A stretch of 64,000 nucleotides of DNA, taken from contig NZ_JAPEMC010000001.1 of NCBI RefSeq assembly GCF_026343115.1, positions 4,483,501 to 4,547,500 of the forward strand, in the 5' to 3' direction. This DNA comes from Streptomyces sp. NBC_00102. Lineage in GTDB: Bacteria; Actinomycetota; Actinomycetes; Streptomycetales; Streptomycetaceae. Of the stretch, positions 48,959 to 61,445 are shown piece after piece; position 1 is the stretch's first letter; each line of letters begins with the position of its first letter. Made by a program: the position numbers and the translations under genes. Below the pieces are notes generated by a model, which did not search any database, had not been told where the DNA came from, and saw nothing but the letters and a program-made list of their open reading frames with translations.

Positions 48959-49603
48959 GTGGGCACGACGAAGATCGACCGGACGAAGGTCGCGGAGACC
49001 GCGCTGCGGCTGCTGAACGAGACGGGGCTGGACGGGCTGACGCTGCGCGCCATCGCCCGGGAGCTGGACGTCAAGGCGCCCGCTCTCTACTGGCACTTCA
49101 AGAACAAGCAGGAACTGCTCGACGAGATGGCCACGGCGATGTACCGCCGGATGCTGGTCGAGGAGACGGCGGACCTCGTCGGCCGGAGCTGGCGGGAGCG
49201 GATCGTCGCTTCGCAGACCGCCCTGCGGACCGCCCTGCTGCGCTACCGCGACGGCGCGAAGGTCTTCGGCGGGGCACGCTTCACCGGCGTCGACCACGCG
49301 CCGGGCATGGAGGAGCACCTGCGCGTGATGGTCGACGCCGGATTCGACCTGCGGCAGGCCGCACGCGCCGCCGCCACCGTCAACGCCTACACGATGGGCT
49401 TCGTCACCGAGGAACAGGGCGTCCAGCCCATGCCCGGCGAACGCCGCGACGGCTACGACGTGTCCGAGCGGGCCGCGCGGATGGCGGACTTCCCGCTGGT
49501 CGCCGCGTCCGGCGCCGAGCTCTTCACCGGCTACGACGAGTTGTTCGCGGAAGGGCTCGCGATCCTCGTCGCGGGCATCGGCGCGCGCTACGGAGTGGAG
49601 TGA
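48959..49603 (+). CDS. TetR family repressor (tetracycline-repressor-like C-terminal domain)
   Basis: A 214-residue regulator. The DNA-binding domain is VAETALRLLNETGLDGLTLR, AIARELDVKAPALYWHFKNK, and QELLDEMATAM. The ALYWHFKNK recognition-helix region and C-terminal part resemble the class of the tetracycline repressor TetR. The GTG at 48959 lies eight bases after TACAGT, so a leaderless mRNA is likely. It is divergent from the monooxygenase and probably represses both genes through operators A and B. Its own stop codon is the first TGA of a 13-bp tandem array. Confidence 0.92.
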   Translation: MGTTKIDRTKVAETALRLLNETGLDGLTLRAIARELDVKAPALYWHFKNKQELLDEMATAMYRRMLVEETADLVGRSWRERIVASQTALRTALLRYRDGAKVFGGARFTGVDHAPGMEEHLRVMVDAGFDLRQAARAAATVNAYTMGFVTEEQGVQPMPGERRDGYDVSERAARMADFPLVAASGAELFTGYDELFAEGLAILVAGIGARYGVE

Positions 49604-49704
49604 CCGGACTGGGTGACCGGGCGGAGTGACCGGACGGGGCGACCGGGCGGGGTGACCGGGCGGGGTGACCGGGCGGGGTGACCGGGCGGGGTGACCGAGT
49701 GGGT
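49601..49704. repeat. 13-bp tandem repeat, eight copies
   Basis: Eight units of TGACCGGGCGGGG type run from 49601 to 49704; the central three are identical and the outer ones carry one to four changes. The first TGA is the stop codon of the TetR gene. Every unit begins with TGA or CGA. Confidence 0.92.
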
Positions 49705-49742
49705 CGACCTTCCGCCCGCGCCCGGTGTGCCGGAACACGGGA

Positions 49743-49799
49743 ACGGCGGGCCGTCCCGTGCCCCGGACACATCGTCCGGGAGAGGGAACGGCCCGCCGT
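49743..49799. terminator. Compound hairpin between tetR and acyltransferase gene
   Basis: Outer arms ACGGCGGGCCGT (49743-49754) and ACGGCCCGCCGT (49788-49799) enclose an inner hairpin CCCGGAC (49762-49768) / GTCCGGG (49774-49780). It lies between convergent genes. Confidence 0.78.
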
Positions 49800-49838
49800 C
49801 CGGGCCGGGTTCGGGGCCTTCGGCGAGGCCCGGGCCCG

Positions 49839-51032
49839 CTACAGCTTGGTGAGCAGCACGTTGCGCAGCTTCGGGGTGAAGGGCCGCTCGACCAGGCGGT
49901 GGATGATCCACGCGAGGACGAGCATCGACACGATGGTCAAACCCATGGTGGCCGCGGACGGGATGCCCAGGTGCCGGTGGAGGAAGTCCACCTCCACCCA
50001 GCCCAGATGCTCGTGGACCAGGTAGAACGGATAGGTCAACGCCCCCGCCACGGTCAGCCACTTCCAGTTCATCCAGTTCAGCAGCCCGAGACCGATCGCC
50101 GCCACGGCGACGAAGCCGAACGCGACGATGAGCACGATGACCAGCGCCGAGCGGTTGGAGAAGGCATCGGGGTTGGACGGGCGCCAGAGGTCCGCCACCG
50201 CGTAGTGCTGGCCGAGCAGCAGGCTCACGCCGGCGATGCCCCAGCCCAGGGCGTCCCGGCGGTCGCGGTGGACGAGGTAGAGCCCTACGCCGCCGATGAA
50301 GAACGGGGCGTATTCGGGCATGAGCACCACGTCGAGGAACGAGGCGTTGGCCGCGTCCGTCATCACCGCGGCCATCGTCCACACCGCGCAGAAGAGCACC
50401 ACCCGGCGGCGGGTGGCCCCGGGGAGCACGACGAAGAGGGCGAAGAGAGCGTAGAAGCGGATCTCGGCCCAGAGGGTCCAGCAGACCCCGAGCACCCGGT
50501 CCGCGCCGACCGGCATCTGGAACAGCGTCATGTTGAGCAGGGCGTCACTGAGGGAGACCGTCTTGTACGCCACCATCGGCAGCGCGAACACGGCCGTCAC
50601 CAGGATCACCGCGAACCAGTACGCGGGCATCAGCCGGGAGACCCGGGAGGCGAAGAACGAGATCAGCGGGCGGCCCCAGCCGCTCATGCAGATCACGAAC
50701 CCGCTGATCACGAAGAAGACCTGCACCCCGAGGCAGCCGTAGGCGAACCAGTGGTGGGCGGTGGGGAACTGGCCCTGGGCCGAACCGCCCCACGCCTTGG
50801 TGATGTCGCCGCCACGCCCGCCGTAGTGGTAGCAGGCGACCATCAGCGCGGCCACCAGACGCAGCCCGTCCAGGGCGCGCAGCCGCACCTTCGGCGCGGG
50901 CTTGGAGCCGGTCGGAACCTCGGGAGCGACCGCCGGCGCGTGCGGGCCGGCCTCCTCGGGGAGCGACGGGCTGGGTATCGGGGAGACGCGGGAGGCGTGA
51001 TCCGCGTCCGCTGGGGTAATGGTCAAGGCCAC
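49839..51032 (-). CDS. Acyltransferase 3 family membrane protein (OafA/YrhL-like)
   Basis: A 397-residue integral membrane O-acyltransferase with about ten spans. It opens, after a Pro/Ala-rich head (about 1-48), with VRLRALDGLRLVAALMVACYHYGG, the family motif containing the His thought to be catalytic. FVISGFVICMSGW and SRLMPAYWFAVI are further landmarks. It may acetylate the surface glycopolymer made by the flanking genes, but free-standing members modify many molecules. The GTG start (51030-51032 complement) lacks a well-placed ribosome site. A GTG at VRLRALDG would also give a complete domain, so the head is uncertain. Confidence 0.87.
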   Translation of the reverse strand: MALTITPADADHASRVSPIPSPSLPEEAGPHAPAVAPEVPTGSKPAPKVRLRALDGLRLVAALMVACYHYGGRGGDITKAWGGSAQGQFPTAHHWFAYGCLGVQVFFVISGFVICMSGWGRPLISFFASRVSRLMPAYWFAVILVTAVFALPMVAYKTVSLSDALLNMTLFQMPVGADRVLGVCWTLWAEIRFYALFALFVVLPGATRRRVVLFCAVWTMAAVMTDAANASFLDVVLMPEYAPFFIGGVGLYLVHRDRRDALGWGIAGVSLLLGQHYAVADLWRPSNPDAFSNRSALVIVLIVAFGFVAVAAIGLGLLNWMNWKWLTVAGALTYPFYLVHEHLGWVEVDFLHRHLGIPSAATMGLTIVSMLVLAWIIHRLVERPFTPKLRNVLLTKL

Positions 51033-51221
51033 TCCAATTCGGCATGTGCGCCGCGTCAGCGTAGGCGCGGGAAAACCCGGACACGGCCGGGAACGCGAGG
51101 TGTTCGCCCCTGCTTCGGCTGGAATTCACCGAGCGGGCGCCGGCCCCGCGCGCTCCGGAGCCTCGCGGGTGACGGAGGTCCCGCCCGGATCCGAGACCGC
51201 GGGCGGGACCTCCCGGAACGA

Positions 51222-52598
51222 CTACCGCGCCACGCTCCGCCGCAGCGAGCGCGCCCGCTTCGCCACCCTGCGGACCGTCGTGTTGCGCGGCAGGAACGCG
51301 AACTGGGCCGGCACACCGCCCGGCAGGCCGAGCGAGGTCAGCCGGCGCCGCTTGAAGTACCGCCAGGTCGTCCGGTTCAACCGGGCCGAGAGGTACGCCT
51401 CGGCCTGGGAGCGCAGGGCCGGGTAGATCTTCGGCTGCATGGCGAAGCCCACCGCCCTGACCAGCGCGGAGATCTCGGTCTCGGAGCCCTCGCCCGGCCG
51501 CCCGGCCTTCACGGCCTCGGTGTCCGTGAGCTCCGGGAGCAGCGCGTCCACCAGGGTCACCGGGACCCGGTTGCTGTTCTCGTACGGGGTGAGCCGCTCC
51601 AGCAGCAGTTCGGTGCCGACCCGCGCCGCCGGCAGCCCGTAGAACGCCGAAGCGGTCAGCAGGGCGGTCGAGAAGCAGCCCACGACGAGGGCCGGCCGCA
51701 TCCGCTCGTAGAGCACCTCCGCGAGCACCGGTGCGGTGAGCAGGCCGTCGTCGAGGACGGTCAGTTCGGCGCCGAGCTTCCCGGCCTGCTCCCGCATGGC
51801 CTGCGACCACTGCGCGGGAGCCGTCGGGTGCGGCTTGAAGACCAGCCGGGTGTGGCCGAGGGCCACCGCGCCCCGCATCATCCGCAGGTGCAGTTCCTCC
51901 TCCTCGGCCGCCGAGATCAGGCCGAGCGCGGAGAGGTACTGGCCGAGCAGCAGGGCCGGGGACTCCACGGCGGGCACCGAGGGCGCCGCGTCCGAGAGCT
52001 CGCCGAGCACCTTCCGGAAGGCCTCGGTACGCACGATCTCGGGTTTCACGCCGAACTCGGAGAGCAGCACGGGCTCCAGGCCCGGCACCAGGTCCAGGTG
52101 GAGCAGGCGCCGCACCCGGGTCCCGATCAGCGGGTCGATCTTGTTGCGGGTGGGGCCGTAACTCATCAGCCCGTCCGCGTAGACGTCCACCGTGGCGCCG
52201 GTGAAGACGGTGGCGATCGCCTGGGCGGGGTTGACCTGGATCGACTCCACCGTGAGTTCGATCTGGTCGTCGCCGAGCTTCCACAGGAGGCGCAGGTAGC
52301 GCTCCCACAGGGGGGCGTCGTCCGGGCGAGGGGCCCAGCCGCTCGGGTGGAAGGGCGCGATGGTCTCGTTCCACGAGATCACGTCGTCGAACCGGTCGCG
52401 GAGTCGCTCGAACCCGGGCATCCGGTCGAGGGACACGGTCGTTTCCGGGACGCCCGCGTTGTTGCAGACGAGCAGGATGCGGCGGTCGGCGGGGCCGTAG
52501 CAGTCGGTGTCCAGGGCCGCCGCGAGAGTGGCCACTCCGTAGAGGGTGGAGGCCACGAAGATCTGCGTGGTGCGCCGCGGGGTGGGGAAGGTCCTCAT
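51222..52598 (-). CDS. Polysialyltransferase family protein (alpha-2,8-polyST-like)
   Basis: A 458-residue putative nonulosonic-acid polymerase. It opens TTQIFVASTLYGVATLAAAL, as in the bacterial polysialyltransferase family. It carries VDVYADGLMSYGPTRNKI (nucleotide-sugar region), HTRLVFKPHPTAP with the HP motif used for CMP-sugar binding, and VVGCFSTALLTASAFYGLP resembling the second conserved block. The C-terminus is basic (RRVAKRARSLRRSVAR) and may bind membrane. The ATG at 52596-52598 (complement) overlaps the upstream GT2 stop as ATGA. With CMP-sugar genes close by, it probably polymerises a sialic-acid-like sugar in the cell wall. Confidence 0.85.
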   Translation of the reverse strand: MRTFPTPRRTTQIFVASTLYGVATLAAALDTDCYGPADRRILLVCNNAGVPETTVSLDRMPGFERLRDRFDDVISWNETIAPFHPSGWAPRPDDAPLWERYLRLLWKLGDDQIELTVESIQVNPAQAIATVFTGATVDVYADGLMSYGPTRNKIDPLIGTRVRRLLHLDLVPGLEPVLLSEFGVKPEIVRTEAFRKVLGELSDAAPSVPAVESPALLLGQYLSALGLISAAEEEELHLRMMRGAVALGHTRLVFKPHPTAPAQWSQAMREQAGKLGAELTVLDDGLLTAPVLAEVLYERMRPALVVGCFSTALLTASAFYGLPAARVGTELLLERLTPYENSNRVPVTLVDALLPELTDTEAVKAGRPGEGSETEISALVRAVGFAMQPKIYPALRSQAEAYLSARLNRTTWRYFKRRRLTSLGLPGGVPAQFAFLPRNTTVRRVAKRARSLRRSVAR

Positions 52599-53578
52599 GC
52601 TGCCGTCTTCTCCTTCGAGGTCGCCGGCCGGCGCCGCAGACGGCGGAGCAGCGTGGCGCGTTCCAGGTCCATGGAGTCGAGTGCGTCGTCCAGCACCTGC
52701 TGGGGCATCCGGCGCAGCGCGGCGCCGCTCATCGACTTCAGGGCACGTGCGACGGGCGGCTCGAACCGCTCGATCGACTTCATGTGGTGCGAGATGATGG
52801 CGCAGTAGGTGCGCACGGCCTTCGGCAGCAGCGCGTCCGCGTCCTTGTCCTCTGCCGTCTCCCGGACGACCTGGTCGAAGGAGCGGATGAAGTCCAGCTG
52901 GCGCACGTCGCCGATCTGGGTGAGCGAGGACGTGACCCCGCGCCGGTAGAAGAGCCCCAGGATGTCCAGCACGGCGAAGGACTCCGCCTCGCGGTGGAGG
53001 CGCCAGATCCAGGGCCGGTCCTCCGCGGTGCGCAGCCCGTCGGTGAAGTGGAGGAGCCCCTTGTCCAGCAGGCGGCGGTGGTACACCCCCGCCCAGGCGT
53101 ACGGGTAGTCCACCGAGGTGGACCGCTCGGCGGGCAGGATCGCGTCCCGGGGGTTCATCACCTCGTCGCGCCGGCCGTGCGGGACCCGGCGCACGGTGCG
53201 TGCCGCACGCTCCGACTCGACGTGGTCCGTGCGGACGAAGTCGCAGCCCAGCGCCTCGGTGCGGGAGACGAGCTCCTCGTAGTAACCGGGCGCGAGCCAG
53301 TCGTCGCCGTCCAGGAACGTGACGTACTCGCCGCGTGCGGCGTTGAGCCCCGTGTTGCGGGCAGTGGCCAGTCCACCGTTCTGCTCGTGTCGGAGTACGA
53401 CCACCCCGGGAATGTCCTCCTGGGCTCGGTCGAGAATTCTCGCGGTTCCGTCCGTCGAGCAATCGTCGACGAGAAGGAACTCGAAATCCTCGCGGGTATT
53501 GGCCCGCAGACTTCTGAGGGTGTCGGGCGCGTATGTCTGCACGTTGTAGAACGGCACGATGACGGAGAGCTTGACCAC
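52595..53578 (-). CDS. Family 2 glycosyltransferase
   Basis: A 327-residue inverting GT-A enzyme. Landmarks: KLSVIVPFYNVQTYAPDTLRS at the start, LLVDDCSTDGTARIL, ARNTGLNAARGEYVTFLDGDDW with the metal-binding DGD, and a TAEDRPWIWRLHREAE segment like the ED catalytic-base motif. It is the first gene of a two-gene transcript with the polysialyltransferase-type gene and probably adds a sugar to the same glycopolymer or its linkage unit. Donor and acceptor are unknown. The GTG is at 53576-53578 (complement). Confidence 0.9.
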   Translation of the reverse strand: MVKLSVIVPFYNVQTYAPDTLRSLRANTREDFEFLLVDDCSTDGTARILDRAQEDIPGVVVLRHEQNGGLATARNTGLNAARGEYVTFLDGDDWLAPGYYEELVSRTEALGCDFVRTDHVESERAARTVRRVPHGRRDEVMNPRDAILPAERSTSVDYPYAWAGVYHRRLLDKGLLHFTDGLRTAEDRPWIWRLHREAESFAVLDILGLFYRRGVTSSLTQIGDVRQLDFIRSFDQVVRETAEDKDADALLPKAVRTYCAIISHHMKSIERFEPPVARALKSMSGAALRRMPQQVLDDALDSMDLERATLLRRLRRRPATSKEKTAA

Positions 53579-53784
53579 GTCGTCACGCTAGATGCGGTCC
53601 CGTCCCATTCCTCGTCCAGAGGGAGTACAGGGGGTGAACGCCGCGTGTCGAGACCATGAATGGCGCCGATTTGCACGGGAGTTCGGCCGCATGCGGATCA
53701 CGCCCCCAAGCGGCTCCCCGCTGTTAACCATCTGTTGCACGCGTGTTGGGCCGCTGAACGAAATGGCTTCCTACCTTCTAGGAC

Positions 53785-55167
53785 GTGCCTCCTCGTACCA
53801 ATGACCCGGCCGAACCCGCCGCAGCCCCCGCGAATTCCGCGGCGCTCCGGGTGGCCGTCCTCGCAGATTCCGACACCCGGTGGAAATGGGGTGCGCTCAC
53901 CGCGCGCCGGCTGACCGCCGCGGGCGAAACCTCCGTCGCGGAGCGCCCCGTCGAGATCAGCGGGCTCCTGCTGCGCGGCCGGGCCACCCCCACCGCGCGC
54001 CAGCTCGCCGAGGTCGGCGACGTCGGCGTGGACGCCGGACGGGTCCGCGAGGTCACGGCCGTCGAGTTCCTGCACACCGTGCGCGAGGAGAAGTACGACG
54101 TCGTCGTGCTCGCCCTCGTCGGCGGCGGCGTCCAGGCGATGCTGCACGGCCTCGCCGCCCTCGACCTGCCCCGCAGGCCCGTCGTCGTCACCGGCTACGT
54201 CGGGGTCGTCTACGAGAAGCTCGCCGACGGACTGCTGCTCCGCCACGGCGCGGACGTCGTCCTCGCCAACTCGGCCCACGACGCGGAGCGCTTCCGCGCC
54301 GTGTACGAAGGGGTCGGCGCCGACGCGGGCGCCGTCACCGAGGCGGCGCTGCCGTTCCTCGGCGGCGCCCCGCACACCCCCGAACCCGGGCGCGACACCG
54401 TCGTGTTCGCCGCGCAGCCCTCCGTACCTGCGTCCCGCGCCGACCGTACGTACCTGCTGCGCCGGCTCGTCGAGCACGCCCGCAAGCACCCCGACCGCGA
54501 GGTGCTGCTCAAGCTCCGCTCCAAGCCGGGCGAGCACACCACGCACATCGAGGAGCTGCCCTACCAGCGCCTCGCCGAGCGGCTGCCCGGCGGACTGCCC
54601 GCCAACTTCCAGCTGGTGTACGGGCACATGGGTGAGGTGCTCGACCGCACCGACCTGCTCGTCACCGTCTCCTCCACCGCCGCACTGGAGTCGCTGCACC
54701 GGTCCATCCCGACCGCGATCCTCAGCGACCTCGGCGTCCGCGAGACGCTCGGCAACCACCACTTCGTCGGCTCCGGTCTCATCACCTCCTGGGACCGGCT
54801 GGACGACGGGCTGCACCCCGTGCCGGACCCCGAGTGGCTGGCCGGCCAGGGCGTCGCCGCCGACGGCACGTACGCCACCGCCTACGACGGCGCCCGCGAC
54901 AAGGTCGGCGCGCTGCTCTCGGCGGGCGAACTGCCGCCGCTGGCCCCCTACTACACCCCCGCCACCGCGCCGGGATACCTCCCCGGCATCCTCGCCCGCC
55001 ACCACCTCGGCCCCGACGGCCGGCCGCTGCCCGGTGCGGCGGCCCCGGTCGCCACCGGCCGCATCAGGGGCGCGGTGCGCGAGACCGTCCGCAACGCCGC
55101 GCGCGGCGCCTACCGGCAGGGCGTCCAGCGCGTCGCGCCCGTGATCCGGCGGATGGGCGAACTGTGA
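53785..55167 (+). CDS. DUF6716 putative glycosyltransferase
   Basis: A 460-residue protein beginning, after a Pro/Ala head, with LRVAVLADSDTRWKWGALTA. Later segments include VVVTGYVGVVYEKLADGLLL, the basic LLKLRSKPGEHTTHIEELPY and LLVTVSSTAALESLHRSIP, which fit a GT-B-type fold. The C-terminus is basic. The family is found next to NeuA/NeuB-type genes in Streptomyces and is named only from its domain. The GTG at 53785 lies seven bases after TACCTT (53772-53777), compatible with a leaderless mRNA. It overlaps or abuts the next gene, so they are co-transcribed. Confidence 0.85.
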   Translation: MPPRTNDPAEPAAAPANSAALRVAVLADSDTRWKWGALTARRLTAAGETSVAERPVEISGLLLRGRATPTARQLAEVGDVGVDAGRVREVTAVEFLHTVREEKYDVVVLALVGGGVQAMLHGLAALDLPRRPVVVTGYVGVVYEKLADGLLLRHGADVVLANSAHDAERFRAVYEGVGADAGAVTEAALPFLGGAPHTPEPGRDTVVFAAQPSVPASRADRTYLLRRLVEHARKHPDREVLLKLRSKPGEHTTHIEELPYQRLAERLPGGLPANFQLVYGHMGEVLDRTDLLVTVSSTAALESLHRSIPTAILSDLGVRETLGNHHFVGSGLITSWDRLDDGLHPVPDPEWLAGQGVAADGTYATAYDGARDKVGALLSAGELPPLAPYYTPATAPGYLPGILARHHLGPDGRPLPGAAAPVATGRIRGAVRETVRNAARGAYRQGVQRVAPVIRRMGEL

Positions 55168-55187
55168 CCACCACTTCAGGAGCATCG

Positions 55188-56468
55188 ATGCCGACACCCA
55201 CCGTCCTCGCGGTCATCCCCGCCCGGGGCGGATCCAAGGGCGTACCCGCCAAGAACCTCGCCCAGGTCGGCGGCGTCCCGCTGGTGTCCCGCGCGGTCCG
55301 CGCCTGCCTCGGTTCCGCCGAGGTCACCGACGTCGTCGTCACCACCGACGACGCGGCCATCGCCGAGGCCGCCCGGCTCGCCGGCGAGAGCGCGGGCGCG
55401 GCCGGCCGGGTGCACGTCGTGCAGCGCCCCGCGGACATCTCCGGGGACACCGCGACGAGCGAGGCCGCCGTGCTGCACGCGCTCGACGCCTACGAGGCGC
55501 TGCGCGGCGCCGCCGCCGACGTGGTGCTGCTCGTCCAGTGCACCAGCCCCTTCCTCTCCCGCGAGGACGTCGACGGGGTGGCCCGCGCGGTCGCCCGCGA
55601 AGGCGCCGACACGGCCGTCACCGTCGCCCCGTTCCACGGCTTCGTGTGGCGCGACGGCGAAGCGGTCGAGGAGAGCAGCTACGGCGTCAACCACGACAAG
55701 GCCGTCCGCCCCCGCCGCCAGGACCGTCCGCAGGACCTGCTGGAGACCGGCGCCGCGTACGCCATGGACGTGGCCGGCTTCCGTACCCACCGCCACCGCT
55801 TCTTCGGCCACACCGCCCTGGTCCGCACGGACCCGGCGCGGGTGCTGGAGATCGACGACCCGCACGACCTGGCCCGCGCCCGCGCGCTCGCCCCGCTCCT
55901 CGACCCGTCGGCGCTGCCGACCCTCGCGGACGTGGACGCCGTGGTGCTCGACTTCGACGGCACCCAGACCGACGACCGCGTCATGGTCGACCAGGACGGC
56001 CACGAGACGGTCTCCGTCCACCGCGGCGACGGCCTCGGCATCGCGGCCATGCGCCGTGCCGGACTGGACGTCCTCATCCTGTCGACCGAGCAGAACCCGG
56101 TGGTCGCCGCCCGCGCCCGCAAGCTCCAGGTCCCCGTGCTGCACGGCATCGACCGCAAGGACCTCGCGCTCAAGCAGTGGTGCGACGAGAACGGCGTCAG
56201 CCCCGACCGGGTCCTCTACGCCGGCAACGACGTCAACGACCTGGCCTGCTTCGCCCTGGCGGGCTGGCCCGTCGCGGTGGCGAGCGCCCACGACGCGGTA
56301 CGCACCGCGGCGCGAGCCGTCACCCGTACCCCCGGCGGCCTGGGAGCCGTCCGCGAGATCGCGGGCTGGCTCCTGGGCCCCGAACTGACCCGCACCCGGG
56401 GCGGTTCGGCTCCGGCCCCCACCAGCACCACCCCCGCTGTCAACACCCCCACGATCACCACCAAGTAA
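55188..56468 (+). CDS. neuA: CMP-nonulosonate synthetase fused to HAD phosphatase
   Basis: Bifunctional 426-residue protein. The N-terminal part (about 1-225) is an acylneuraminate cytidylyltransferase: VLAVIPARGGSKGVPAKNLA, VVVTTDDAAIAEAARLAGES, QCTSPFLSREDVDGVARA and VLEIDDPHDLARARALAP. It activates a sialic-acid-like sugar to its CMP form. The C-terminal part (about 250-390) is a KdsC-type HAD phosphatase: VVLDFDGTQTDD, LILSTEQNPVVAARARKL and YAGNDVNDLACF. The latter probably removes the phosphate from the 9-phosphate made upstream. The ATG at 55188 is chosen because CAGGAG lies six bases upstream; a GTG at 55164 overlapping the previous stop is possible. A Thr/Pro tail ends it. Confidence 0.9.
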   Translation: MPTPTVLAVIPARGGSKGVPAKNLAQVGGVPLVSRAVRACLGSAEVTDVVVTTDDAAIAEAARLAGESAGAAGRVHVVQRPADISGDTATSEAAVLHALDAYEALRGAAADVVLLVQCTSPFLSREDVDGVARAVAREGADTAVTVAPFHGFVWRDGEAVEESSYGVNHDKAVRPRRQDRPQDLLETGAAYAMDVAGFRTHRHRFFGHTALVRTDPARVLEIDDPHDLARARALAPLLDPSALPTLADVDAVVLDFDGTQTDDRVMVDQDGHETVSVHRGDGLGIAAMRRAGLDVLILSTEQNPVVAARARKLQVPVLHGIDRKDLALKQWCDENGVSPDRVLYAGNDVNDLACFALAGWPVAVASAHDAVRTAARAVTRTPGGLGAVREIAGWLLGPELTRTRGGSAPAPTSTTPAVNTPTITTK

Positions 56469-56482
56469 GGAACACCCTCATC

Positions 56483-57415
56483 ATGAGCGACTCCCGTCTG
56501 CGCCAGTTCGGTACCCGCACCGCAGGCCCCGGCCAGCCCGTGTACATCACCGGCGAGATCGGTATCAACCACAACGGCGAGCTGGACAACGCCCTCGCCC
56601 TGATCGACGTCGCCGCCGACGCCGGCTGCGACGCCGTCAAGTTCCAGAAGCGCACCCCGGAGATCTGCACCCCGCGCGACCAGTGGGACATCGAGCGTGA
56701 CACCCCCTGGGGCCGGATGACGTACATCGACTACCGCCACCGCGTCGAGTTCGGCGAGGACGAGTACCGCACCATCGCCGAGCACTGCGCCAAGCGCGGC
56801 ATCGACTGGTTCGCCTCCCCGTGGGACACCGAGGCCGTCGCCTTCCTGGAGAAGTTCGACGTCCCGGCCCACAAGGTCGCCTCCGCCTCGCTCACCGACG
56901 ACGAGCTGCTCCGCGCCCTGCGCGCCACCGGCCGCACGGTCATCCTCTCCACCGGAATGTCGACCCCGAAGCAGATCCGCCACGCGGTCGAGGTCCTCGG
57001 CAGCGACAACATCCTGATGTGCCACGCCACGTCGACGTACCCGTCGGTCGCCGAGGAGCTCAACCTCCGCGTCATCAACACCCTGCAGGCCGAGTACCCG
57101 AACGTCCCGATCGGTTACAGCGGCCACGAGACCGGCCTCCAGACCACGCTGGCCGCGGTCGCGCTCGGCGCCACGTTCGTCGAGCGCCACATCACCCTGG
57201 ACCGCGCCATGTGGGGCTCCGACCAGGCCGCTTCCGTCGAGCCGCAGGGCCTCGCCCGCCTCGTCCGCGACATCCGCACCATCGAGGCCTCCCTCGGTGA
57301 CGGCGTCAAGAAGGTCTACGAGTCGGAGCTCGGCCCGATGAAGAAGCTCCGCCGCGTCGCGGGCGTCGTCGCCGAGACCGAGAGCGCGACGGCCGCCGAG
57401 CCGGCCGCGGTCTGA
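56483..57415 (+). CDS. neuB: NeuB-type nonulosonic acid (phosphate) synthase
   Basis: Condenses phosphoenolpyruvate with a hexose(-phosphate) or ManNAc to make a nine-carbon sialic-acid-like sugar; 310 residues. Landmarks: ITGEIGINHNGELDNALALI, AVKFQKRTPEICTP, VILSTGMSTPKQIRHAVE, CHATSTYPS, YSGHETGLQTTLAAVALGA and VERHITLDRAMWGSDQAAS. The usual C-terminal SAF (antifreeze-like) domain is missing, so the protein is short. Related Streptomyces loci are known to make Kdn-containing teichulosonic acid, so Kdn is a plausible product. The ATG at 56483 begins 14 bases after the neuA stop. Confidence 0.9.
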   Translation: MSDSRLRQFGTRTAGPGQPVYITGEIGINHNGELDNALALIDVAADAGCDAVKFQKRTPEICTPRDQWDIERDTPWGRMTYIDYRHRVEFGEDEYRTIAEHCAKRGIDWFASPWDTEAVAFLEKFDVPAHKVASASLTDDELLRALRATGRTVILSTGMSTPKQIRHAVEVLGSDNILMCHATSTYPSVAEELNLRVINTLQAEYPNVPIGYSGHETGLQTTLAAVALGATFVERHITLDRAMWGSDQAASVEPQGLARLVRDIRTIEASLGDGVKKVYESELGPMKKLRRVAGVVAETESATAAEPAAV

Positions 57416-57426
57416 GACGACATCCG

Positions 57427-58476
57427 GTGAACCTCGCCTTCGTCGAGAGCCCGGTCCAGCTCCTGAACGTCCTGGAGTGGACCCACGCCAAGGGGGAGGA
57501 GACGCCGGCCGTCACCACGGTCGTCGTCCTCCCCCCGGTCGACCCGATGTCGCGCGGCCAGCTGCGAAGGATGGCCGACCTGGCCCGCGACGAGGGCATC
57601 ACCGTGCGCTGGCAGGAGGCGCGCGGCGAACAGGGCACCCCGCTCAAGACGCTGCGCGCCCTGGTGGCGCTGGTGCGCAGGGCCGACCACGTCGTGATCG
57701 GTGACCCGTTCTCGCGCTACGTCCAGCTCCTGCTGAGTATCGTGCGCACCGGCGGCCTCACGGTGGTCGACGACGGCACCGCCACGATGGAGTTCGTGGC
57801 ACAGCTCGCCCGCGGCGAGCGTCTGGTGCGCTGGCACCGCAAGGGGAACAAGGGGCCGCGCGAGCTGCTGCTCGCACCGGTCACCGCCGCCGCCCGCCGC
57901 CGGTTCGTCCCGTCGGCCGGGCGCCGCGTCGAAGTGTTCACCGCGATGCCGGTGGAGGCCCCCGAGGGGGTCGAGGTCACCGCCAACACCTTCTCCTGGA
58001 CCCGTGCGCGCTTCGGCCCGCCCCGTCTCACCAAGGGCGCCGACATCGTCGGCACCTCCCTGGTGGAGACGGGCGTGGTCGAGCCGGCGCCGTATCTGGA
58101 AGCGGTGGCGGCCCTCGCCCGTACGCACGGCGCCACCCGTTACTTCGCGCACCGCCGCGAGGCGACGGACAAGCTCCACGCCCTGGAGGCCGCCACCGGT
58201 CTGGAGATCGTCCGGCCGGACCTGCCGCTGGAGCTCATCGCCCGGCGTGGCCCCATCGGCCGTACCGTGCTGAGCTTCCCCTCCACCGTGGTGCACACGC
58301 TGCCCCTCGCGCTGGCGGGCACCGGGGTCAAGGTCGCGGTCTGCGACATCGACCCCGAGTGGCTGCGGGACACGGCGTCCTCGCGTGCGCAGGGGTTCCT
58401 CTCCGGGGTCACCGAGACCGCCCGGGACGTGCACCGGCTGGCCTTCGCCCCGCTGGCCCCGCCCGCGGGGTCCTGA
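57427..58476 (+). CDS. GT52-like putative nonulosonic-acid transferase
   Basis: A 349-residue protein opening LAFVESPVQLLNVLEWTHAK, much like the start of GT52 and capsule sialyltransferase-like proteins. TVVDDGTATMEFVAQLARG, RYFAHRREATDKLHALEA and VLSFPSTVVHTLPLALAGTG match the later motifs (His-Arg pair for CMP binding, and the SP/ST block). It has no signal peptide. It ends the neuA-neuB transcript and is followed by a terminator. A CMP-sugar transferase is inferred from motifs and context; I have no direct homologue of known activity in mind. Confidence 0.72.
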   Translation: MNLAFVESPVQLLNVLEWTHAKGEETPAVTTVVVLPPVDPMSRGQLRRMADLARDEGITVRWQEARGEQGTPLKTLRALVALVRRADHVVIGDPFSRYVQLLLSIVRTGGLTVVDDGTATMEFVAQLARGERLVRWHRKGNKGPRELLLAPVTAAARRRFVPSAGRRVEVFTAMPVEAPEGVEVTANTFSWTRARFGPPRLTKGADIVGTSLVETGVVEPAPYLEAVAALARTHGATRYFAHRREATDKLHALEAATGLEIVRPDLPLELIARRGPIGRTVLSFPSTVVHTLPLALAGTGVKVAVCDIDPEWLRDTASSRAQGFLSGVTETARDVHRLAFAPLAPPAGS

Positions 58477-58487
58477 CCGGGAGCACG

Positions 58488-58585
58488 GAGCCGGACGGAT
58501 CGAGCCGGACGCACGGAGCCGGACGCACCGAGCCGGACGCACCGAGCCGGACGCACCGAGCCGGACGCACCGAGCCGGGAGGCCC
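58488..58585. repeat. 14-bp tandem repeat, seven copies
   Basis: Units of GAGCCGGACGCACC start at 58488, 58502, 58516, 58530, 58544, 58558 and 58572. The four central ones are nearly identical and the last merges into the left arm of the terminator. Confidence 0.92.
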
Positions 58586-58621
58586 GGGTCCCGCGGCGAA
58601 GTCCGCGCGACCCGGGCCTCC
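58578..58621 (+). terminator. Terminator of the neuAB operon
   Basis: Perfect 13-bp arms GGAGGCCCGGGTC (58578-58590) and GACCCGGGCCTCC (58609-58621) with a further inner CGCG pairing. Confidence 0.85.
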
Positions 58622-58792
58622 GTGCGTACGGCCCGAACACCCCACCCGTACGGCGCAGTCGGGAAAAACGGCGCAGTCTACCCACCGTGCGTACGCCCCA
58701 CACGTTTCGGCGCCGTTTCATGTTCATCCGAGGTGCTGAAGTTTTGTTGATCCATGTCCGGTCGGGGGGTCCGTAGGCATACCCTTCGATGG

Positions 58793-60052
58793 GTGAACCA
58801 GTTGAAGTCCCGCGCGTCCCTCGTCCACGCCGACGGTGAACCGGCCGGTCGCTCACCGGCCCGGGCGGTCTCCCTGCCCGGCACCCTCTCCGAAGAGCTC
58901 CGGGCCGAGCTGATCGCCTTCCGCCGCGATCTCCACATGCACCCCGAGCTCGGCAACCAGGAGTTCCGCACCACCGCCGCCATCAAGGCCCGGCTGGAGC
59001 AGGCCGGACTCGCCCCCCGGGTCCTCTCCACCGGCACCGGCCTGATGTGCGACGTGGGGCGGTGGGACGGGGAGACGCCGATGCTGGCGCTGCGCGCGGA
59101 CATCGACGCGCTGCCCATCCCGGACGTCAAGACGGGCGTTCCCTACCGCTCGACCGTCCCCGACCGCGCGCACGCCTGTGGCCACGATGTGCACACCACC
59201 ACGGTCCTCGGCGCGGGGCTGGTCCTCGCCGAGCTCGACCGCCGGGGCGAGCTTCCGCACGCCGTCCGGCTGATCTTCCAGCCCGCCGAGGAGGTACTGC
59301 CCGGCGGCGCCCCCGACGCCATCGAGTCCGGGGTCCTGGAGAACGTCGGCCGGATCATCGGCGTGCACTGCGACCCCAAGGTGGACGTCGGCAAGATCGG
59401 GCTGCGGGTCGGGGCCATCACCTCCGCCTGCGACCGGCTGGAGGTCACCCTGGACGGGGCGGGCGGCCACACCGCGCGCCCGCACCTCACCACGGACCTG
59501 GTCACCGCCGCCGCCCGGGTCGCCGTCGACGTGCCCGCGCTGCTCGCCCGCCGGGTGGACGCGCGCTCCGGCCTCGCCGTCACCTGGGGCCGGCTGCACA
59601 CCGGCCACGCCTGCAACGTGATCCCGCAGCACGCGGAGATGTCCGGCACGGTCCGCTGCCTCGACCTGAAGGCATGGCGGGACGCCCCCGACCTGGTGCA
59701 CGCGGCCGTCGACGAGGTCGCGACCACGCACGGCGCCAAGACCGTCATCAACTACGTCCGGGGCGTGCCGCCCGTCGTCAACGACGCGGCCTCCATCGGC
59801 CTGCTCGACGCCGCCATGACCGAGCGCCGCGGACCGTATGCGATCGAGGACACCGAGCAGAGCCTCGGCGGCGAGGACTTCTCCTGGTACCTGGAGCACG
59901 TGCCGGGCGCCATGGCCCGCCTCGGGGTCCGGGCGCACGGTGACACCCGCGGTCTCGACCTGCACCGGGGCGACTTCGACGTGGACGAGGAGGCCATCAC
60001 CGTCGGGGTCGAGCTGTTCACCGCCGCCGCCCTGCTCAACGGCGCGAGGTAG
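58793..60052 (+). CDS. M20 family amidohydrolase (hippurate hydrolase-like)
   Basis: Zinc peptidase-type amidohydrolase of 419 residues. Landmarks: FRRDLHMHPELGNQEFRTTA, MLALRADIDALPIPD with metal-binding Asp, AHACGHDVHTTTVLGAG with HxxxCGHD-type ligands, QPAEEVLPGGAPDAIESGVL containing the catalytic Glu pair, and the dimer domain with GGHTARPHL. It releases an acyl group from an amino acid or related amide; the natural substrate is unknown. The GTG at 58793 follows promoter-like TAGGCATACCCT by a few bases, so a leaderless mRNA is plausible. An ATG 39 bases earlier would lie upstream of that motif and is rejected. Confidence 0.88.
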   Translation: MNQLKSRASLVHADGEPAGRSPARAVSLPGTLSEELRAELIAFRRDLHMHPELGNQEFRTTAAIKARLEQAGLAPRVLSTGTGLMCDVGRWDGETPMLALRADIDALPIPDVKTGVPYRSTVPDRAHACGHDVHTTTVLGAGLVLAELDRRGELPHAVRLIFQPAEEVLPGGAPDAIESGVLENVGRIIGVHCDPKVDVGKIGLRVGAITSACDRLEVTLDGAGGHTARPHLTTDLVTAAARVAVDVPALLARRVDARSGLAVTWGRLHTGHACNVIPQHAEMSGTVRCLDLKAWRDAPDLVHAAVDEVATTHGAKTVINYVRGVPPVVNDAASIGLLDAAMTERRGPYAIEDTEQSLGGEDFSWYLEHVPGAMARLGVRAHGDTRGLDLHRGDFDVDEEAITVGVELFTAAALLNGAR

Positions 60053-60073
60053 TGATCGCGGGCGCCGCCCCGG

Positions 60074-60105
60074 GGGGACGTGAGGCTCGTGCCACGTCCC
60101 CTTTT
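60074..60105 (+). terminator. Rho-independent terminator of the amidohydrolase gene
   Basis: GGGGACGTG (60074-60082) pairs with CACGTCCCC (60093-60101), followed by TTTT. Confidence 0.85.
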
Positions 60106-60303
60106 CGGGGGTGTTACCCCCTGATGTCCGCCATGGAGGACATCGGATGCCGGGCGGAGGCGCCAGGGAGGCCGGGCACAGGCCGCACACGGACCGGACG
60201 CAGTACCTCCGCCCGAAATGTGGCGGAGTGTCAGGTGGTGCGATGTGACCAAAACTCTTCACGACGATCCGATAACGACTGGTGAACGTGTCTTTAACTG
60301 ACA

Positions 60304-60318
60304 TCTACGCGCGTTACG
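60304..60318. promoter_or_regulatory. Shared operator motif 1 (TCTACGCGCGTTACG) at the BMP gene promoter
   Basis: The motif overlaps the -10-like TACGAT (60315-60320) and lies 60 bp before the lipoprotein start. A similar site, in reverse orientation, lies upstream of the ATPase gene. This is seen directly; the regulator is unknown. Confidence 0.55.
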
Positions 60319-60377
60319 ATCGCGGCGAACCCAGCGCCGGAGTGGCGCTTTCGGTCAGGTTTTTAAGGAGCCTCCCA

Positions 60378-61445
60378 GTGCGCCGGATCACCAGGATCGC
60401 CACCGTGGGCATTGCGTCCGCGGCTTTCGCGCTGTCCGTCACGGCTTGTGGCGGTAAGACGTCCTCCGAGGGCAGCAGCAGCGACAGCAGCAGCAGCTCG
60501 TCCTCCGGCGGCAAGACCGCCCTCGCCTACGACATCGGTGGCCGCGGCGACCAGTCGTTCAACGACGCCGCCTACGCGGGCCTGGAGAAGGCCACGAAGG
60601 AGCTCGGCTACAAGGGCGTCGAGGCGGAGCCCTCCGAGGGCGAGAGCGACGCGGACAAGATCCAGCGCCTGACCGAGCTCGCGCGCGGCGGCAACAACCC
60701 GGTCATCGGTGTCGGCTTCGTCTACGCCAACGCCATCGCCGAGGTCGCCGCGAAGTTCCCGAACACCACGTTCGGGATCATCGACGACAGCTCGAAGCCC
60801 ACCAAGAACACCGCGAACCTGGTCTTCAGCGAGGAGCAGGGCTCGTACCTCGCCGGCGTCGCCGCCGCCAAGGTCACCAAGACCGACACGGTCGGCTTCA
60901 TCGGTGGTGTCGAGACCCCGCTGATCAAGAAGTTCGAGGCCGGCTTCGTCCAGGGCGTCAAGGACACCAAGGCGGGCGTCAACGTCAAGGTCCAGTACCT
61001 GACCCAGCCGCCGGACTTCACGGGCTTCTCCAAGCCCGACCTCGGCAAGGCCGCCGCGCAGGGCCAGCTCGACGCCGGCGCCGACGTGATCTACTCCGCC
61101 GCCGGTCTCGCCGGTTCCGGCGCGATCGAGGTCACCTCGAAGGCCAAGAAGTGGTCCATCGGCGTCGACTCCGACCAGTACAACCAGGCCGGCCTCGCCG
61201 ACTACAAGGACTACATCCTGACCTCGGTCACCAAGGACGTCGCCGACTCGGTCTTCAACCTGATCAAGTCGGTCAAGGACGGCAAGCCCGAGACCGGTGA
61301 GATCCGCGCCGGCCTGGACACCGACGGTGTCGGCCTCGCGACCTCCAACCCGGCCTTCACCGCGATGACGGACGTCACCGCCGCGATCGACAAGGCCAAG
61401 GCCGCCATCATCGCCGGCACGATCACGGTCAAGACCGCCCCGTAA
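60378..61445 (+). CDS. BMP family lipoprotein (nucleoside-type ABC substrate-binding protein)
   Basis: Surface lipoprotein of the PnrA/Med/BMP family, 355 residues. The signal VRRITRIATVGIASAAFALSV ends in a lipobox Cys (VTAC), followed by a Ser-rich linker. The mature domain has LAYDIGGRGDQSFNDAAYAG, GENPVIGVGF-like NNPVIGVGFVYANAIAEVAA, and WSIGVDSDQYNQAG. Members bind purine or other nucleosides and feed ATP-driven importers. The GTG at 60378 follows AAGGAG. A strong terminator follows, and the ATPase has its own upstream region with a matching operator motif. The recalled S. coelicolor orthologue is SCO4885. Confidence 0.92.
   Translation: MRRITRIATVGIASAAFALSVTACGGKTSSEGSSSDSSSSSSSGGKTALAYDIGGRGDQSFNDAAYAGLEKATKELGYKGVEAEPSEGESDADKIQRLTELARGGNNPVIGVGFVYANAIAEVAAKFPNTTFGIIDDSSKPTKNTANLVFSEEQGSYLAGVAAAKVTKTDTVGFIGGVETPLIKKFEAGFVQGVKDTKAGVNVKVQYLTQPPDFTGFSKPDLGKAAAQGQLDAGADVIYSAAGLAGSGAIEVTSKAKKWSIGVDSDQYNQAGLADYKDYILTSVTKDVADSVFNLIKSVKDGKPETGEIRAGLDTDGVGLATSNPAFTAMTDVTAAIDKAKAAIIAGTITVKTAP

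Follow-up and report, generated by a model that had tools for sequence, protein, structure and literature searches.

The teichulosonic-acid region of Streptomyces coelicolor, SCO4873-SCO4882, was reportedly described by Ostash in 2014. The walls of this organism contain galactose (Gal) and the nonulosonate Kdn, often together with N-acetylglucosamine or methyl groups, according to excerpts of two papers (PMC11481543, PMC7831098), the first of which gives up to seven repeats for the Gal-Kdn polymer. In excerpts of three further papers (PMC2267785, PMC8269224, PMC13011467), the genes of this locus other than neuAB are mostly called hypothetical, glycosyltransferase or putative transferase, and SCO4880 is described differently, as a sialic acid synthase (PMC8269224) or as a putative transferase (PMC2267785). 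Here, a seven-gene block is analysed that lies at positions 49839-58476 of the window, i.e., a whole stretch of 64,000 nucleotides from Streptomyces sp. NBC_00102 (contig NZ_JAPEMC010000001.1), and in which neuA, neuB and glycosyltransferase genes are clustered as in the S. coelicolor-type locus. An initial annotation, made from the sequence of the window, had considered the S. coelicolor Kdn region a related one; judging from the published descriptions excerpted above, the block looks like that locus type itself. The product of the gene set is probably a cell-wall sugar chain with Kdn and no phosphate. The best explanation as a whole, which we hold to be probable, is a phosphate-starvation teichulosonic-acid locus of Streptomyces with the gene roles set out below; the locus type is assigned with high confidence, the individual roles with moderate confidence.

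The locus and its inheritance as a block

The seven genes claimed by the initial annotation were borne out by open frames, by a codon-use gene call that picked each of them, and by Pfam and NCBIfam. AT3, PST and GT2 lie on the minus strand and are followed, divergently, by DUF6716, NeuA-HAD, NeuB and X57 (the protein starting at 57427) on the plus strand (Table 1), with 4-base overlaps between GT2 and PST and between DUF6716 and NeuA-HAD. The set was followed in 88 loci, that is, the best 80 of 583 confirmed named NeuB loci (whose titles are all Streptomyces, with the only exception of [Kitasatospora] papulosa), seven further stretches and the window; some contigs are cut, which lowers the counts, one locus entered the set twice (as L024 and L068), and L027 has no NeuB but represents another genomic place of DUF6716. 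Genes of the NeuB cluster are found in 87 loci, NeuA-HAD in 86, X57 in 84, DUF6716 in 83, GT2 in 79, PST in 78, and the window type of AT3 in 35. This co-occurrence is not due to chance.

Profile searches for four marker families in an even genus sample of 121 genomes retrieved NeuB in 111, DUF6716 in 115, X57 in 116, and PF07388, the PST family, in 113, while all four are absent from five genomes; the absences are shared, with hypergeometric values of 3e-8 to 1.3e-6 for four marker pairs (121 genomes, phylogeny ignored). Of the genomes with an incomplete set, four are broken assemblies of 480-1770 contigs (G246, G267, G293 and G303); G257, which lacks PST (120 contigs), and G272, where X57 is found in fragments only (410 contigs), are harder to explain. 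In four of the five locus-free genomes, a flank gene stands directly beside the M20 peptidase gene: TetR in G193 and G300, LysE in G242 and, in G023, a gene read from its sequence, with no family scan, as a methylmalonyl-CoA mutase. G286 has three other genes at this place, between LysE and M20, and the two that were scanned are nitroreductase-like and a universal stress protein. These empty sites define the genetic unit, whose limits are AT3 and X57. The locus is real, near-core in the genus, and inherited or missing as a block. In a sample of 198 genomes of the phylum, X57 and above-cut-off DUF6716 share the same seven genomes, six of them from this genus, and two further genomes have sub-cut-off DUF6716 matches. 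The seventh genome, Ilumatobacter fluminis by protein identity, carries NeuA-HAD, NeuB, X57 (29%) and two DUF6716 genes together; an LCP ligase, a methyltransferase and a GT2 lie beyond three other genes.

No export or linkage gene lies between the empty-site borders (AT3 to X57), which supports what had initially been noted. Export and attachment would be carried out by genes elsewhere, e.g., the wall-teichoic-acid exporter and LCP ligases. One group elsewhere in the genome (L133, G000:C1:6045001-6065000) contains LCP, GT4, an IspD-SDR fusion and a TagF-like gene, with a PF21311 protein (5-bladed beta-propeller) as neighbour, and recalls the wall-polymer genes beside the UmbA lectin gene described in an excerpt of PMC13274773; another stretch (L134, G000:C1:2406134-2415559) holds, within about 10 kb, five of the ten LCP-family ligase matches of the genome. 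No exporter was found in the 30 kb near the TagF-like/LCP genes, where 11 of the 13 called proteins of L133 and eight of the nine of L135 were scanned and the only ABC pair has an import-type permease, nor among the eight of 15 called proteins scanned in the five-LCP stretch. A different explanation is that the product is a short chain on wall teichoic acid or a glycolipid rather than a peptidoglycan-linked wall polymer, and that the unit has no exporter or ligase because the chain is built on such a carrier. This agrees with the content of the empty-site borders, with the LCP, GT4, IspD-like and TagF-like group, with the few repeats of the S. coelicolor polymer (PMC11481543, excerpt), and with the teichuronic-acid-like chains of S. 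griseus and S. antibioticus, which are attached to wall teichoic acid of the polyol-phosphate type (PMC13274773, excerpt); unlinked export genes, however, serve many polymers, and this alternative seems somewhat unlikely.

Table 1. Features of the block and of its divergent promoter (positions in the window).
Feature	Position	Strand	Description	Evidence
AT3	49839..51032	-	acyltransferase-3 membrane O-acyltransferase, probable decorating enzyme	Acyl_transf_3 PF01757, 90.6 bits
PST	51222..52598	-	PF07388 polysialyltransferase-family protein, probable CMP-Kdn transferase of the backbone	A-2_8-polyST PF07388, 103.8 bits (cut-off 23.3)
GT2	52595..53578	-	family-2 glycosyltransferase, probable galactosyltransferase (sugar inferred)	Glycos_transf_2 PF00535, 123.6 bits
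Candidate PHO box	53618..53639	-	GT2-PST direction	GTTCACC unit, then second 11-nt unit
Candidate PHO-box-like element	53723..53755	+	upstream of DUF6716	three 11-nt units GTTAACCATCT GTTGCACGCGT GTTGGGCCGCT
DUF6716	53785..55167	+	GT-B protein of the NeuE family; probably primes the chain or partners the polymerase	PF20471, 364 bits
NeuA-HAD	55164..56468	+	fusion: N-terminal CMP-nonulosonate cytidylyltransferase, C-terminal KdsC-like phosphatase	CTP_transf_3, 70.7 bits; Hydrolase_3, 32.1 bits
NeuB	56483..57415	+	nonulosonate synthase without SAF, 310 aa, probable Kdn-9-phosphate synthase	PF03102, 270.3 bits, residues 40-276
X57	57427..58476	+	protein without annotation; GT38-like GT-B fold; probably the second CMP-Kdn transferase	predicted model

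To the left of the block lie a TetR gene (Pfam) and genes whose sequences suggest a flavin monooxygenase and a LysE-type transporter; to the right, an M20 peptidase gene (Pfam) and genes read as BMP lipoprotein and ABC transporter genes. An Rfam search of 49000-60500 returned no matches. The two top-scoring tandem arrays of the window sit just beyond both unit ends (49600-49697, 14-bp unit x6.9, score 164; 58483-58578, 13-bp unit x7.5, score 161) and are possible hot spots for gain or loss of the block.

Transferases and the NeuE family

The presence of a polysialyltransferase-family protein, as initially annotated, is supported by PF07388 (Table 1). A profile of 30 PST sequences, one of which is E. 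coli NeuS, matches MhPST (GT38, 5wc6/5wcn) with a whole-sequence E of about 5e-7; its two stretches by themselves reach no better than E 0.06-0.08, and the KPHP, LAE and FST motifs line up. The motifs of the window protein are Y-A-D142-G, K-P-H257-P and S310-T311. Relative to the D/E-D/E-G motif, it reads A-D-G, the acid beside Gly being kept and the preceding one not, and HP is kept (KPHP); within the cluster, ADG is found in 77/85 and PHP in 81/85 sequences. A second GT2 occurs in ten of the 88 loci and a second PST in seven, all seven among the ten (further pairs may lie beyond the fetched ends). On the basis of this pairing, of the co-duplication and of the published Gal-Kdn polymer of S. 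coelicolor, GT2 and the GT38-type PST would form an alternating pair adding galactose and Kdn to give a short backbone.

In 11 of the 113 PF07388-bearing genomes (G171, G223, G225, G248, G249, G252, G260, G261, G276, G284 and G305; loci L025, L066, L087 and L100), the PST beside NeuB matches weakly (<60 bits), and all 11 carry a second, stronger PF07388 copy. Both copies were fetched for ten of them: the strong ones all keep ADGLM[ST]YGPT, and the resident ones show varied motifs and long open frames. Their sequences may be read as a polymerase replacement in which the divergent copy was retained.

X57 has no credible match in Pfam or NCBIfam (PF07388 is unmatched at E up to 1), and a PDB sequence search with its profile disclosed no relative. 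Its model has a GT-B fold nearest to CMP-sialyltransferase, the closest solved fold among the matches listed being GT38, so that the initial label of "GT52-like" was close but imprecise; no GT52 chain stands among the 50 matches listed, a result still compatible with GT52. The D/E-D/E-G motif is present as DDG, invariant in the 46 aligned sequences and in 84/84 cluster members. As in MhPST, likewise GT-B, the DDG, the His, the P-x-E glutamate and the S/T motif follow the order of the PST family, even though the two proteins share 13% identity over the structural alignment and X57 has HRR instead of HP and no PF07388. X57 is a likely CMP-nonulosonate transferase, for which D116, H242 and E269 are hypothesized to be the catalytic residues; alongside PST, it might transfer Kdn from CMP-Kdn in a non-redundant role, and the Kdn linkage that it makes would probably be the first one or a special one.

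As for DUF6716, the E. coli UTI89 gene located between neuC and the polyST gene encodes a PF20471 protein (56.6 bits, cut-off 27) that aligns with it by BLASTP at 18% over 242 aa (E 3e-10); this protein is NeuE by position, the record giving no gene name. A C-terminal membrane anchor is reported for NeuE, and DUF6716 has a conserved basic C-terminal tail. The DUF6716 model (pLDDT 74) is also a GT-B fold, its nearest solved folds being mostly UDP-GlcNAc 2-epimerases and NDP-sugar GT-B enzymes, with no CMP-sialyltransferase among the matches listed. DUF6716 has neither D/E-D/E-G nor HP at the catalytic positions: the stretch LRSKPGE (exact in 74/83 cluster members) occupies the expected place of HP, and D/E-D/E-G is present in only 36/83, the window copy lying near residue 340, after the SST motif and not in the N-terminal domain. 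An HP at residues 235-236 was rejected as the catalytic motif, since it precedes the strand, the K1 protein has the same HP, and neither protein has one after the strand. A PDB sequence search with the DUF6716 profile found no relative (matches at E 0.09 and above look like chance), and profile comparisons with PST and with X57 gave nothing. L027 (G182:C10:431001-451000) contains a second DUF6716 gene (54% identity) well away from the NeuB locus; the 20 kb fetched there gave no match to NeuB.

The structure prediction proposed in the initial annotation as a check gave, in both cases, a GT-B fold and not the lack of any GT fold named there as refuting. Its suggestion that both proteins are new CMP-nonulosonate transferases is supported for X57 (GT38-like model, DDG) and weakened for DUF6716 (NeuE family, missing motifs, epimerase-like folds). 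An explanation in which both are such transferases, with one linkage per transferase, is unlikely: DUF6716 is without both motifs at the catalytic positions, and NeuE, whose exact function is reported as unclear, is not obligatory for polymer synthesis (PMC2408645, excerpt). Rather, DUF6716 would be the Gram-positive counterpart of E. coli NeuE, priming the chain or holding the polymerase at the membrane. DUF6716 is named in no paper of the literature searched, nor are relatives of DUF6716, NeuE or polysialyltransferase described there for Streptomyces walls (several searches gave top matches only, and few subscription journals were covered).

Sugar, promoter and decoration

NeuB consists of the barrel domain only, with no Pfam match for SAF, as initially seen; its signature stretches GEIGINHN and RHITLDR are present in 87/87 cluster members (lengths 297-331). 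The fusion of a CMP-synthetase to a KdsC-like phosphatase was likewise recovered, through Pfam and NCBIfam domains and an intact-looking HAD active site. The HAD part spans about 55908-56390 (an alternative start of the gene is 55188), KdsC-type phosphatase families of NCBIfam match residues 255-404, and the solved structure 3mmz, presumably an S. avermitilis protein, aligns over 159 residues (E 3.7e-85, 286.8 bits). Among 86 NeuA-HAD members, DFDGxxTD and GNDx[ND] are conserved in 86/86 and LSTE in 78/86; the Lys of the HAD motifs is seen only in the alignment to 3mmz. The HAD motifs are intact as in KdsC, in the KDN-9-phosphate phosphatase (which we take to be BT1713) and in 3mmz; a difference is the fusion of the domain to a cytidylyltransferase.

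A UDP-GlcNAc 2-epimerase (PF02350) was not found in the 99.99% complete genome by a search that retrieved it in 11 of 14 controls and did not extend to other routes to N-acetylmannosamine (ManNAc); a mannose-6-phosphate isomerase is present (110.8 bits). Kdn is favoured over N-acetylneuraminate (Neu5Ac) because of these two results, the lack of SAF, the fused phosphatase, and the Gal and Kdn of S. coelicolor walls. It is the likely sugar, in agreement with the nonulosonate synthesis, activation and transfer initially proposed, and the favoured route would be mannose-6-phosphate, Kdn-9-phosphate, Kdn and CMP-Kdn: NeuB would condense mannose-6-phosphate and phosphoenolpyruvate, the HAD half would strip the 9-phosphate, and the other half would make CMP-Kdn. 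That the sugar is, instead, an N-acetylated nonulosonate of the Neu5Ac type, for which DUF6716, with its epimerase-like model, supplies ManNAc or its 6-phosphate in place of NeuC, is improbable in the light of the same evidence.

PHO boxes consist of directly repeated 11-nt units with GTTCACC (PMC6283541), and candidates for such elements lie in the divergent promoter (Table 1). The sequence GTTNACNNNNNGTT occurs once per strand in the whole window and in 74 of 77 homologous intergenic regions, vs. 0.57% of Markov shuffles, and GGTGAAC occurs in 67 of the 77 (11 of the 88 loci were dropped, with a gene cut or not called or a gap outside 80-700 bases, and the doubled locus counts twice); this conservation is partly descent, because the loci are related. 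In S. coelicolor, SCO4873-SCO4882 is a PhoP target set (PMC13011467) and SCO4873-81 with neuAB is likewise PhoP-dependent (PMC2267785), according to excerpts of both. A pptA mutant of S. lividans, read in that study as phosphate-limited, has raised levels of the proteins SLI_5146-5156 (PMC8003754). The divergent promoter is, thus, a candidate for PhoP control, and PhoP would turn it on under phosphate scarcity.

The gene beside the proximal PST varies: in 75 of 78 loci with a called gene, it is AT3 (31), a GT8-pyruvyltransferase fusion (8), another AT3 (7), PF13578 methyltransferases (9), GT29-like (3), or others (17). This fits a constant backbone with species-specific decoration, AT3, which would decorate the chain, being the variable slot of the locus. 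An accessory gene with a motif of GT29, the animal-type sialyltransferase (L092:3422-4705, minus strand, and relatives; PF00777 21.7 bits, cut-off 23), is found in 20 of the 88 loci, all of which also contain the GT8-pyruvyltransferase fusion; as a core transferase, it was dropped, being present in only these 20 and absent from the window. The polymer may possibly be a surface receptor with species-variable decoration genes.

Weighing of the reading and comparison with known systems

As a whole, the initial interpretation is partly supported. Several points weigh against the reading preferred here. The curated NCBIfam cut-offs are missed by NeuB (249.3 bits vs. 399.65 for N-acetylneuraminate synthase, TIGR03569) and by NeuA-HAD (70.3 bits vs. 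180 for the KDN-9-phosphate phosphatase equivalog NF058599), and the epimerase search was confined to PF02350. Orthology to SCO4873-4882 is taken from published gene descriptions, which the block matches in outline (PMC2267785, PMC8269224) but which differ on SCO4880, and the PHO boxes were recognized from sequence alone. Galactose as the sugar of GT2 is a guess. No PST was found in the 20 kb fetched from Ilumatobacter fluminis. In X57, the H of the HP of known families is kept and the P replaced (one known sialyltransferase has HA in this place, according to an excerpt of PMC2169525), and its profile matches that of PST only weakly (E 0.022 and a probability of 2% by hhalign, with NeuS among the 30 PST rows).

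A broader proposal, whose chances seem to us about even, is that X57 founds a new CMP-Kdn transferase family of GT38 ancestry and that DUF6716-PST is the Gram-positive counterpart of NeuE-NeuS, i.e., that one ancient nonulosonate-polymer machine makes both polymers. If so, the polysialic capsule of E. coli and the wall polymer made by nearly all Streptomyces under phosphate starvation would depend on the same machine, and the role of NeuE could be settled in a harmless and tractable soil bacterium. The locus type and the polymer were already known from S. coelicolor; what is new is a testable role for each conserved gene, the tie of DUF6716 to NeuE, and the link of two under-described transferase-like families to the polysialic-acid machinery.

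The S. coelicolor region resembles the block in that neuAB, a GT2 gene and hypothetical genes stand together, there under PhoP control (PMC2267785, PMC8269224, PMC13011467, in excerpts); the decoration genes vary among the species examined, with AT3 in the window and methyltransferases or others elsewhere. In region 2 of the polysialic acid capsule genes of E. coli K1 (UTI89), as in the Streptomyces unit, one cluster combines NeuB, a DUF6716 protein, a PF07388 polymerase (NeuS in E. coli) and a cytidylyltransferase protein, whose length in K1 leaves room for a C-terminal extension. K1 differs by having, close at hand, neuC, kdsB, an ABC exporter and two proteins of capsule synthesis, presumably KpsC and KpsS, and its NeuB is, we assume, ManNAc-dependent; the Streptomyces unit, without an exporter, differs from K1 in the phosphatase fused to NeuA, in GT2 and in X57.

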